This document shows positions 20,967-27,372 of a stretch of DNA of 64,000 nt, in pieces. The notes below the pieces were generated by a model, which worked only from the letters and a program-made list of their open reading frames with translations, searched no databases and had not been told where the DNA came from. Location: assembly GCF_021021555.1 (NCBI RefSeq), contig NZ_JAINWA010000001.1, forward strand, positions 1,488,001-1,552,000, given 5' to 3'. The position numbers and the translations under genes were made by a program. This DNA is from Teretinema zuelzerae (GTDB taxonomy: Bacteria > Spirochaetota > Spirochaetia > Treponematales > Treponemataceae). How positions within the stretch are numbered: position 1 is the first letter of the stretch; each line of letters opens with the position of its first letter.

Positions 20967-21608
20967 ATGAGTTTTTTTTCGTTCATGCAGAAACGCCTCC
21001 GCTGGAGCTACTGGAACGCCGCGCTTTTGCTGATTGCGGTTAACATCGGCGTCTTTATGCTCACATCAATGAATTACCGTCTGACGCAATATCTTGCGCT
21101 CAATCCCCTGCTCATGCTCAGACAGGGAATGTGGTGGCAGGTTTTCACCTACCAGTTCGTTCACGGCGGAACCGGACATCTGTTGTCCAACATGATCGGC
21201 CTGTTTTTCTTCGGCGCCATGCTGGAACGGCATAGAAGCTTCGGATCGTCGGAATTTCTCCTTTTCTACCTCGTATCCGGCACCCTTTCCGGAATCGCTT
21301 CCTTCTTTGTGTATTGGATCACCGGAACCTGGTTCGTTTTTTTGATGGGTGCTTCGGGCGCCGTCTTTGCGGTGCTCTTCGTGTATGCAGTGGTCTATCC
21401 ACGATCGACGATCTACCTCATGGGATTCGTTCCCGTTCCCGCCCCGCTATTGGTAATAGGATATGCCGGCATCGAAGTATTCAGCCTCATCAGCGGAAGC
21501 AACAGCGGAATAGCGCATGGAACGCATCTGTTCGGCTTCGGCTTCGCCTGGCTGTATTGCCGAACGCGCCTCGGAATCAAACCCCTACAGGCCTGGCGGA
21601 ACATGTGA
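20967..21608 (+). CDS. Rhomboid-family intramembrane serine protease
   Basis: Protein of 213 residues with six or so membrane helices. Rhomboid landmarks: the WWQVFTYQFVHGG loop, HLLSNMIGLFFFG, the catalytic serine in MGASGAVFAV and the catalytic histidine in AHGTHLFGF. The ATG at 20967 starts one base after the glucosidase stop. It ends in a GTGA overlap with the following exported protein, so that protein is the obvious candidate partner or substrate, as inference. Confidence 0.93.
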   Translation: MSFFSFMQKRLRWSYWNAALLLIAVNIGVFMLTSMNYRLTQYLALNPLLMLRQGMWWQVFTYQFVHGGTGHLLSNMIGLFFFGAMLERHRSFGSSEFLLFYLVSGTLSGIASFFVYWITGTWFVFLMGASGAVFAVLFVYAVVYPRSTIYLMGFVPVPAPLLVIGYAGIEVFSLISGSNSGIAHGTHLFGFGFAWLYCRTRLGIKPLQAWRNM

Positions 21609-22300
21609 GCCGATTCCGGCTTTTTTCGGCATTCAGATTCTCGAAAATTGTTATGCTCGTCGGCGTATCCGGCATGTTGCACTGCGCTCTTGCGGCTCAG
21701 ACAATGCTCAGCATTCCGGTCTGGATATATCTTGAAGCCGTTCCCGGCAGCGGAAAGACTCATTCCTCGCTTTCCGATATTCCGCCGTACGAAGATCTGC
21801 GGGATCTCTCGTCCTTTCTCTTCGGCGGAATGATTTACGGATGGAAGTTTTCCTATATCCCGCCGGATAAAGCCAGAAACGTGGAAGAGGAATTTTCGCT
21901 CGAACCGATAGTCGCGCTGTCTCCGGAGGACCCCTCGCTAAGGCTCGAAGATGTAAAAAGCAGCTATCCGCGGCTCGAAGGCTGGGCACGATACGCGCTT
22001 TCGGAGGCTCAGGCAAAAAGGCTTCAATACTGGGAATCGAGCGGGTTCAGAACCGGAAAGGGAAGAGGAAGCGGAGAAAGGAAAGACGAAAGCGGCGGAA
22101 TCAGGGATGCGTACGTCAAAGCCCTGCTGAATTCAGTCCGAGAGCGAGCCAGAGAGATGGAAAAAAACAAGCCGAAGGAAATAACCGGTGAATTGCTCCT
22201 CAGAGACAACCCCCGCCTGTTTCCGGACGAAGGCTTGTTCATCGCGGAAGTCAGGACTGTCATTCATATTGAAAGCGTCGTTCCCTATCGGTTGTATTAA
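21605..22300 (+). CDS. Exported protein of unknown function
   Basis: About 231 residues. A GTG at 21605 overlaps the rhomboid stop by 4 bases and gives a basic N-terminus before a hydrophobic stretch ending HCALAAQ, a type I signal peptide. An ATG at 21653 would leave a shorter signal. The mature part has SFLFGGMIYGWKFSYIPPDK, a Lys/Arg/Gly/Glu-rich low-complexity stretch (about 145-165) and no recognised domain. Likely periplasmic. Confidence 0.7.
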   Translation: MSRFRLFSAFRFSKIVMLVGVSGMLHCALAAQTMLSIPVWIYLEAVPGSGKTHSSLSDIPPYEDLRDLSSFLFGGMIYGWKFSYIPPDKARNVEEEFSLEPIVALSPEDPSLRLEDVKSSYPRLEGWARYALSEAQAKRLQYWESSGFRTGKGRGSGERKDESGGIRDAYVKALLNSVRERAREMEKNKPKEITGELLLRDNPRLFPDEGLFIAEVRTVIHIESVVPYRLY

Positions 22301-22312
22301 GGCGTCGCTTCG

Positions 22313-24001
22313 TCACGCTAACGGAAAGAAAACCCGGACCCGCGAGCCTGAATCGCAGCGGTCTATCAAGAGAGAGCCGTTCAACTGCGAAACCAGAGCC
22401 TCGATCATCTCGTAGCCGAGAGAGTCTCCCTTTCGGACGGATTCGTCGAAGCCGCGTCCGTTATCGATGATCGACAAAACTGCCATGCCCTGCGCCGCGT
22501 CGAGAAATTCAATATCGATGAAGCCTTCATCTCCGATGCCGAAGGCATGAAGAAGGCTGTTCGACACCAGCTCGTTTATTACCAACGCCAGAGGAAGGGC
22601 CCTCTCGATGGAAAGCGAAATATCGATTCCCGACACTGAACACTGCACCTTCGAGCCGATCTCCGAATAGAGCGATACCAGATAATCGCACAAGCCGGTG
22701 CAGTATTCCTGCATGACGATGGACTCGACATCCGAAAATCGGAAAAGCGTTTCATACACCATGGAAAGAGCCATTATGCGCGAATGCGTCGTTTGGAGCG
22801 CTTTTTTCACCGGCTCATCCGTTGCGTGGATCTGCTGGAGATGCACGATGCTCGACAACAGCTGAAGATTGTCCGCCACCCGTTTTTTCAATTCCAGAAG
22901 AAGGTTTTCCTTTTCTTCAAGAATCCGTTCCGAATCCCGCGTCCGGTCTTCAAGAGATGCGGCCATGCGGTTGAAGGCGATCATCAAGTCGGTGATTTCG
23001 TCATGGGCGCGGTTCATGCCGGATCGCACGGCAAGGTCTCCGTCGGCCAAACTTTTGGAAAACTCGGTGAGCCGGATTATTCGGTCGACGAAGAGACGCC
23101 TCGCCATCTGAATGCACACGGCAAAAGCAGCGATACAGGCGAATAACATTAAAATCAGCACGCGCGCTATCGGAACCCCGGCCTCGTACAGCACGACGTC
23201 GTACGGAATCCGGACGGTTACGGTGAATTTCTGGCCGGAATCTGAAAGGGTTTGAGACGACGCCAGGTATTTTTCTCCGCCTATCTGAATAGTGCGCGTT
23301 TCCGCCCGTTCCCCGATCGATGAAAGCGCCTGCAGCTCGGAAAGAACGAAATCGCCCGGCTTGTCGGAATTCATACCGCTGGAAGAGAACAGGCGTCTCC
23401 CGTGAGCGTCGAATATTTCAAGAATCGTACCGTCGTCGGGAATGCGCTGGAGAGACAGCTCCGTGTTGTAATACGAGAGGTCGTAGGCGGCGATAAGGAC
23501 AAGGGATGCGCCGGAAGCGATCTCTGCCGGAAGCGAATAGATTATAGACGGGGCGCCGGTCGATTTGCTGTAAAGAAAAGAACTCGCCGTAAATTCCCTG
23601 CGCCGCAAAGCATCGCTGAAATACTCGCGGTCGGACAGCGAATAGCCTGTTTTGCCCACTCCGGATGCGACGACAGAGCCTGCTTCGTCGGCTGCAAGCA
23701 AAACCGCGTAATCAGGATAAATTTTCATCAAGCTCTTGAAATAAACGTCCAACGTAGCATAATCCGCGCGACCGACTGCCCGGGTCTGTGATACCGCTTG
23801 CAGCAATTCTTTCGCGGAGCGGCAGATCAAACGCTGCTCGTTGATAAATCCTTCGCACAAATTGTCTAAAAACTGTTCTTTTTTGGAAATGGAAGCATAG
23901 CGCGCCGATGTGACGGAATACACGGTTATCACCAGCGTTGGAACAAGCGCAATGAGAACTATGAAGAAGATCTTTGTCCAGATTCTCAGGTTTTTTTGCA
24001 C
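22313..24001 (-). CDS. Membrane histidine-kinase-like protein lacking the phospho-acceptor His
   Basis: Protein of 562 residues. Membrane helix 1 (about 11-32), a periplasmic Cache-like sensor (about 35-270), membrane helix 2 (about 278-300), HAMP (about 302-355), a HisKA_2 dimerisation segment (about 365-440) and a HATPase_c domain (N-box LVINELVSNSLLHAF, G1 IIDNGRGFDE). HisKA_2 normally reads HHR.KNNLQ, but here it is LKKRVADNLQ, with Lys372-Lys373 where the histidines should be. The ATP site looks intact. The GTG start at 24001 is uncertain. No response regulator gene is adjacent. Confidence 0.88.
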   Translation of the reverse strand: MQKNLRIWTKIFFIVLIALVPTLVITVYSVTSARYASISKKEQFLDNLCEGFINEQRLICRSAKELLQAVSQTRAVGRADYATLDVYFKSLMKIYPDYAVLLAADEAGSVVASGVGKTGYSLSDREYFSDALRRREFTASSFLYSKSTGAPSIIYSLPAEIASGASLVLIAAYDLSYYNTELSLQRIPDDGTILEIFDAHGRRLFSSSGMNSDKPGDFVLSELQALSSIGERAETRTIQIGGEKYLASSQTLSDSGQKFTVTVRIPYDVVLYEAGVPIARVLILMLFACIAAFAVCIQMARRLFVDRIIRLTEFSKSLADGDLAVRSGMNRAHDEITDLMIAFNRMAASLEDRTRDSERILEEKENLLLELKKRVADNLQLLSSIVHLQQIHATDEPVKKALQTTHSRIMALSMVYETLFRFSDVESIVMQEYCTGLCDYLVSLYSEIGSKVQCSVSGIDISLSIERALPLALVINELVSNSLLHAFGIGDEGFIDIEFLDAAQGMAVLSIIDNGRGFDESVRKGDSLGYEMIEALVSQLNGSLLIDRCDSGSRVRVFFPLA

Positions 24002-25630: not shown

Positions 25631-27372
25631 ATGCCAAAGATCGAAGTGAACGAGCGGCTCTTCTTCAGCCTCCTCGGCGATACATACGACTACCAGAAAC
25701 TCGAAGACCGGCTCACCTGCGCGAAGGCTGAGCTCGATGAAAAGCCGGACATGTCCGTCTCTTCGGACGTCCGCACCATTAAAATCGAGCTGAACGATAC
25801 CAACCGCCCGGACCTCTGGTCTACTGCCGGCGTTGCCCGCCAGCTCAGGCTGCACGCGAAAAAAGGACCGGGAAAGAACGGAACCAAAGCGGACTATTCG
25901 GCATTCTTTTCGACGCAAAACGACGTTAAAGACTGCGCGAACCGCGTCGTTACGGTGGACCCGGCCCTGAAGGAAATCCGGCCCTACATGACGGCCTTCG
26001 TGATTTCCGGAAAACCCATCGACGAGCCGATGCTGCTGGACATCATTCAAACGCAGGAAAAACTGTGCTGGAACTTCGGACGAAAGCGCAGATCCATCTC
26101 CATGGGAGTATACCGCTCCGCAAACATTTCCTGGCCGGTTCATTACAAGGCAGTCGATCCCGATAAAACCAGCTTCGTTCCGCTCGCATGCGACGCGCCC
26201 ATGACCTGCCGTCAAATTCTGACCGACCATCCCAAGGGAAAAGAGTACGGCTGGATCCTCGCCCAGGCAGAGAAGTTCCCCCTGCTCGTCGACGACAAAA
26301 ACGAAGTCCTCTCGATGGCGCCCATCATCAACAGCGCAACGCTCGGAGCGGTCCAGGTGGGAGACAGGGATCTGCTCGTCGAAATGACCGGCACGGATAT
26401 GCCGAGCCTCGTTCTTGCAACCAGCATCGTCGCCTGCGATTTCGCGGACGCCGGCTACTCCATCCTTCCTGTAAAAGTTGAACACCCCTACGACACAGGA
26501 TTCGGCAAGGCCGTCACAACGCCCTTCTACTTCCAGAAGCCCGCCTCGACCACAATACCCGCGATCAACCGGCTTCTCGGCACCGAGCTCAAAGCGGCGG
26601 AGATTGCCGACGCCCTCGAGCGAATGGGCTGCGCCGTAGAAATTTCAAAGGAAACCGTCGCCATTCGGCCTCCCGAATACCGCAACGACTTCTTGCATGA
26701 AGTGGACATCATCGAGGATGTAATGATGGGCAGGGAAATCTCGAGCTTCCCCCCGCCAAACCGTCGGACTTCACGATCGGCCGGCTAACGCCTGTAACCC
26801 TTTTCAGCCGCAAGGCGAAAAGCCTGATGGTCGGGCTCGGCTACCAGGAGATGATTTTCAACTATCTGGGTTCGGGAAAAGATTTTATCGAAAGAATGAA
26901 TATCGCAGGAACGGAAATCGGGGCAAAGGTCATCGAAATTTCCAACCCGATGACCGAAAACTATCAGTTCGTCAGGCCGTCCATTCTTCCAAGCCTCCTC
27001 GCCGCTGAAGCTCCTTCCGGCAACGCCGTCTATCCGCACAGAATTTTCGAAATCGGAAAAGTCGCGTATCTGGAAGAAAGCGAAAATACCGGAACCCGAA
27101 CCAGACAGCACCTCGGCTTTCTTTCGGCGTCCGGCGAGGCGAATTTCAACGAAGCCGCAAGCCAGGTCGCCAGCCTGCTCTATTATCTGGACCATGATTA
27201 CTCGGTATTCGAAACGCAGGACCCGCGGTTCATCCCCGGGCGCCAGGCAGGAATCCTTGTAAACGGCGTCCAGGCGGGCATTTTCGGAGAAATCCATCCC
27301 CAGGTTTTGGAAAACTGGACGATCGGCATCCCCTGCGTCGCAGGAGAGATCGATCTCGAATTGCTGATGTAA
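25631..27372 (+). CDS. pheT: Phenylalanyl-tRNA synthetase beta subunit, interrupted by a one-base frameshift
   Basis: Archaeal-type PheT. The first 375 or so residues (from MPKIEVNERLFFSLLG to VDIIEDVMMGREISSF) contain the B3/B4 and B5 regions. The frame breaks at the six-C run 26749-26754. One extra C restores the sequence PPAKPSDFTIGRLTPVTLFS and joins it to the frame ending at 27372, for about 580 residues, the normal length. The gene is essential, so an assembly indel is far likelier than inactivation. AGGAG is placed 6 bases before the ATG. Confidence 0.92.

Follow-up and report, generated by a model that had tools for sequence, protein, structure and literature searches.

The window (the whole 64-kb stretch of Teretinema zuelzerae DNA analyzed here, genome G000) carries a sensor-kinase-like gene of 562 codons on its minus strand, placed between a small gene (window 21314–22300) and pheS. 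The small gene, conserved and lying between a rhomboid gene and the kinase-like gene, has no Pfam match; the start listed for it runs into the rhomboid ORF and was probably placed too far upstream. In species without the kinase-like gene, it sits next to pheS. The neighboring pheT is read in two frames, 25631–26788 (385 aa) and 26827–27372 (181 aa), with a C run near 26750, and is a single ORF of 574–592 aa in sister genomes where it is read whole. This frameshift in an essential gene is probably an assembly or sequencing error. The features of the kinase-like gene are as follows.

22313..24001, minus strand: predicted pseudo-histidine kinase, dCache_1-HAMP-HisKA_2-HATPase_c, 562 aa, GTG start (Pfam and same-locus orthologues)
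23213..23770, minus strand: dCache_1 extracytoplasmic sensor, residues 78–263 (Pfam PF02743, E 2.4e-12; resembles KinD and other Cache sensors in fold and sequence)
22946..23101, minus strand: HAMP, residues 301–352 (Pfam PF00672, E 1.8e-6)
22667..22894, minus strand: HisKA_2 dimerization (DHp) domain, residues 370–445 (Pfam PF07568, E 2e-15, 56.9 bits against a cut-off of 22.3)
22319..22597, minus strand: HATPase_c (CA) domain, residues 469–561 (Pfam, 34 bits against a cut-off of 26.4)
22883..22888, minus strand: AAA AAA codons of K372-K373, where HHRVKNN has HH (TTTTTT on the plus strand)
22868..22876, minus strand: A376-D377-N378, where homologues have KNN (alignment)

All four domains score above their Pfam cut-offs, and the HisKA_2 (PF07568) and HATPase_c matches exceed the curated thresholds for profile membership. 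The Cache-like sensor and HAMP domain described in an earlier reading of the DNA without database searches (the sequence-only reading) are recovered by Pfam as dCache_1 and HAMP. In an AlphaFold2 model with a mean pLDDT of 87.5, the DHp forms a hairpin that, together with the CA fold, matches EL346, and the sensor part matches Cache domains such as KinD.

The acceptor motif of the window protein (LLLELKKRVADNLQLLSS) reads ELKKRVADNLQ, versus E[IV]HHRVKNNLQ in active HisKA_2 kinases. In a phmmer search of the PDB, the EL346 motif EVQHRVKN (4r39/4r3a) has its histidine opposite K373, and because of this pairing the canonical HRxxN histidine position is, by alignment, a lysine. The replacement of the HH-R-KNNLQ pattern by LKKRVADNLQ, already recognized in the sequence-only reading, is seen in the translation and the EL346 alignment, with the refinement that KNN is altered as well; the AAA AAA codons it gave for the two lysines, at 22883–22888, appear as TTTTTT on the plus strand. 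An alignment of homologues, of the kind that it had called for, separates a clade without either histidine from 30 homologues that mostly have them (the first histidine in 29/30, the second in 27/30). Specifically, all seven clade members, the window copy and orthologues from six other species of the genus, lack the HRxxN H-box of HisKA_2 kinases, with histidine at neither position, and read KKRVADN (window copy), QKRVSDN (four), RKRVASN, or RQRIMDN. The KNN triplet has become [ASM][DS]N, so that its lysine and first asparagine (acceptor +4), invariant in 30/30 homologues outside the clade, are gone in 7/7 members and only the second asparagine is retained. The seven orthologues strongly support two earlier claims, that the Lys-Lys pair is no simple base error and that the protein is no ordinary phospho-relay kinase.

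The orthologues in the six other genomes are 44–52% identical to the window copy, and identity among all full-length clade copies is 43–68%; the G010 copy is split across two contigs. Named orthologue records are metagenome assemblies, such as Treponema sp. AS08sgBPME_211, Spirochaetes bacterium ADurb.Bin215, and Spirochaetales bacterium Spiro_10, and were found by an alignment-based scan of genome contigs, a single-protein scan having given no match. The remaining 262 genomes of the family gave no match at E 1e-25, and full-length colinear homologues outside the genus, from order- and phylum-wide searches, carry HHR[VIL]KNN. A tree of 40 catalytic cores groups the seven rows without the histidines on one side of a branch supported at 100/100, a value unchanged when the seven motif columns are omitted. 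A single clade amid histidine-bearing homologues points to one old loss, and an ancient disappearance of the histidines on the clade stem is the simplest account of these sequences.

The reading frame is open in every complete copy, and third codon positions show roughly double the differences of second positions among clade copies, and a still larger excess in the closest pair, G003 and G009 (0.62 versus 0.17). Mean identity within the clade falls from DHp helix 1 (64%) through HAMP (60%), the rest of the DHp (59%), and CA (48%) to dCache (44%). These patterns indicate that the protein is probably a conserved, functional pseudo-histidine kinase, neither a sequence error nor a decaying gene. 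Its ATP site appears largely preserved. Residues E477, N481, D513, G515, G517, and G529 are unchanged throughout the clade, and R408, the R-box arginine by alignment position, is invariant together with E477 and N481. HisKA_2 kinases have a conserved arginine (R-box) and a glutamate replacing the first N-box asparagine (PMC12148442), and the window protein has both. N378 (acceptor +5) and Q380 are also invariant in the clade. The ATP lid, long in HisKA_2 proteins, is a few residues shorter between G1 and G2 than in most homologues. Further clade changes comprise a hydrophobic residue for the N-box lysine, His416 to Tyr, and a G2 box reading LG[YF]; weighed as added signs of lost catalysis, these do not indicate it by themselves, EL346 having Q, Y, and a G2 of similar form in the corresponding positions. 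The earlier description of an intact N-box and G1 box holds for N481, D513, G515, and G517, whereas the N-box lysine and the G2 box differ from most homologues. The lower conservation of the CA domain relative to the DHp leaves ATP binding uncertain, and the ATP-dependent switch proposed earlier could be accommodated by the retained ATP-site residues.

The gene lies in reverse orientation between the small gene and pheS in all carriers with readable flanks; in G010 each of the two flanks is visible on a separate contig. Four species of the genus (G001, G004, G006, and G007) do not have the gene, the same neighbors standing ~65–120 bp apart, with the placement of pheS in G004 taken from a separate pheS search. 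The pseudokinase role is dispensable in at least these four species because the gene is missing there. The pheS of the window genome is 86% identical to that of three of these non-carrier species versus 80–84% to the complete copies of other carriers, which hints at gene loss from an ancestral state in the non-carriers. A functional tie to pheS was rejected, as the locus order is identical in species without the pseudokinase gene and only the site is fixed.

The window genome encodes about 54 receiver domains. Its HATPase_c proteins above cut-off number 45, and 35 of these, the pseudokinase not among them, have a receiver within 5 kb. None of the genome's 55 Response_reg hits falls inside the 64-kb window, the nearest being ~28 kb from the pseudokinase gene, in agreement with the earlier remark that no response regulator is adjacent; neither a receiver gene nor a kinase gene adjoins the pseudokinase gene in any carrier. 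In four of the seven carriers (G000, G003, G009, and G010, the last 77% complete), the pseudokinase is the only HisKA_2 protein found. ANTAR regulators are partners of some HisKA_2 kinases. As a consistent partner this class was rejected, none being found in carriers G009 and G011. The sole ANTAR protein of the window genome (G000:C3:944390-944530) lies in an open frame of 229 aa that gave no Response_reg match at E 0.001; any receiver it has must therefore be divergent. Separately, the only HisKA_2 protein of four non-carrier species (L091, L092, L093, and L098) reads HSR, HNR, HNR, or HYR, with the first histidine retained and the second, of HRxxN, replaced; judged by sequence, these may be unusual kinases as well.

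We favor, with a probability of about one half, a pseudo-histidine kinase that cannot be phosphorylated and transmits its signal by the shape of its DHp and ATP-bound domains, probably by docking a response regulator in the manner of DivL. The extracytoplasmic dCache domain would sense a small ligand, and HAMP would relay this signal to a HisKA_2-type DHp dimer that has no acceptor histidine left to phosphorylate. The CA domain would probably keep binding ATP in a structural or conformational role. The output would most likely be non-catalytic: depending on the signal, the conserved DHp surface would dock a response regulator and so sequester, recognize, or present it, as with DivL and DivK~P. 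We infer ATP binding, dimerization, response-regulator docking, and the ligand alike, and favor signal-gated docking because the retained parts serve sensing, dimerizing, nucleotide binding, and docking, and because DivL provides a precedent. A wider proposal, that the clade represents a spirochaete-specific class of membrane sensors using an ATP-binding kinase fold as a ligand-gated, ATP-dependent switch outside any same-class phospho-relay, stems from the pseudokinase being the sole HisKA_2 protein in several genomes, and we advance it only tentatively.

Had only the kinase half-reaction been lost, the protein could act as a dedicated response-regulator phosphatase, in which the DHp (N378/Q380) and a nucleotide-bound CA would dephosphorylate under dCache control. 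Many histidine kinases are bifunctional. The phosphatase reaction of HisKA_3 kinases proceeds without involvement of the histidine, whereas that of the HisKA class requires it (PMC8092228). The clade-wide invariance of N378 and Q380 and the retained ATP-site residues agree with such an activity; the first asparagine, which is D or S in the clade, does not, and PhyP, earlier thought to be a HisKA_2-type phosphatase, had no such activity in tests (PMC5898713). On balance, we regard a phosphatase role as unlikely.

Somewhat less probable again is control of another histidine kinase through a heterodimer or scaffold, with the protein as an ATP-dependent regulator or a trans-kinase. Pseudokinase-kinase pairs are documented for ChrS/HrrS and DivL/CckA (PMC9491836, PMC4211667), the ATP-site residues are retained, and the genome encodes roughly 45 HATPase_c proteins. 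However, no carrier has a kinase gene next to the pseudokinase gene, and a same-class partner is argued against by the four carriers in which the pseudokinase is the sole HisKA_2 protein. The trans-kinase or heterodimer with another HisKA_2 kinase suggested earlier is disfavored on these grounds, and the more general notion of a regulator of another kinase, weakened for HisKA_2 partners, could still apply to a kinase of a different class.

A replacement acceptor, with lysine or another residue as the nucleophile of a non-histidine phospho-relay, is highly improbable. Lysine occupies position 373 in 6/7 clade members, but G005 has Arg-Gln (LRQRIMDN), leaving no conserved nucleophile at the site. 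A search of the cytoplasmic half across the clade returned N-box H485, common to many active homologues too, as the sole invariant histidine, and a conserved histidine elsewhere in the dimerization helices, which the sequence-only reading had named as the case against itself, was not found there. Least probable of all is a decaying gene or sequence error: the acceptor codons form part of a six-A homopolymer and the neighboring pheT is apparently frame-shifted in the assembly, but an indel in the A run would break the frame, and for the clade this explanation is already refuted by orthologue sequences from six independent genomes with the same loss, open frames, and purifying selection.

Several known systems resemble the pseudokinase in part. 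The NCBIfam model of PhyK, which with PhyT (PhyP) belongs to the alphaproteobacterial membrane HisKA_2 proteins acting in the general stress response, matches residues 16–559 (E 2.5e-46), at 158.4 bits, below the cut-off of 750 for the equivalog NF051872. PhyK does not autophosphorylate and the CA domain of PhyT is degenerate (PMC5964349, PMC5898713), but both keep and need the acceptor histidine for phosphotransfer, whereas the window protein has lost the histidine and kept the CA residues. Among solved structures, the DHp-CA nearest in sequence is that of the blue-light kinase EL346 (4r39, E 1e-8; profile 1.5e-18), which also ranks among the nearest in fold and itself retains the histidine. 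One subgroup of the EL346-like LOV-HKs reportedly lacks it (PMC10359499); EL346 and its relatives are soluble LOV kinases of alphaproteobacteria. The best-scoring homologue outside the genus is the HisKA_2 kinase L034 of G274, from another family of the same order, which is colinear over its full length (355 bits) but has EVHHRVKNNFQ, retains lysine in its N-box (NAFKHGF), and occupies another locus.

DivL of Caulobacter has a tyrosine at the acceptor position, shows neither kinase nor phosphatase activity, and binds DivK~P (PMC4211667). Like DivL, the window protein has its acceptor histidine replaced across a conserved clade that retains the N and G boxes, the sequence signature of a DivL-type protein. 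DivL is PAS-bearing, carries Tyr (or Ala), and comes from a different HK class, which limits the docking analogy to function; the window clade is HisKA_2, with a dCache sensor and Lys or Gln. We found no literature on histidine-less HisKA_2 kinases in treponemes and no report of this pseudokinase clade, which annotation pipelines would probably label as ordinary sensor histidine kinases. Histidine-less kinases being represented already by DivL and the EL346-like subgroup, the clade is new but its kind is not. Naturally kept histidine-less kinases, of which few cases are known, test the roles of DHp and CA apart from phosphotransfer. To these the window clade adds a transmembrane HisKA_2 sensor that keeps its ATP-site residues, allows a phylogenetic before-and-after comparison with HHRVKNN relatives, and draws part of its value as a test case from the species in which it is the sole HisKA_2 protein.
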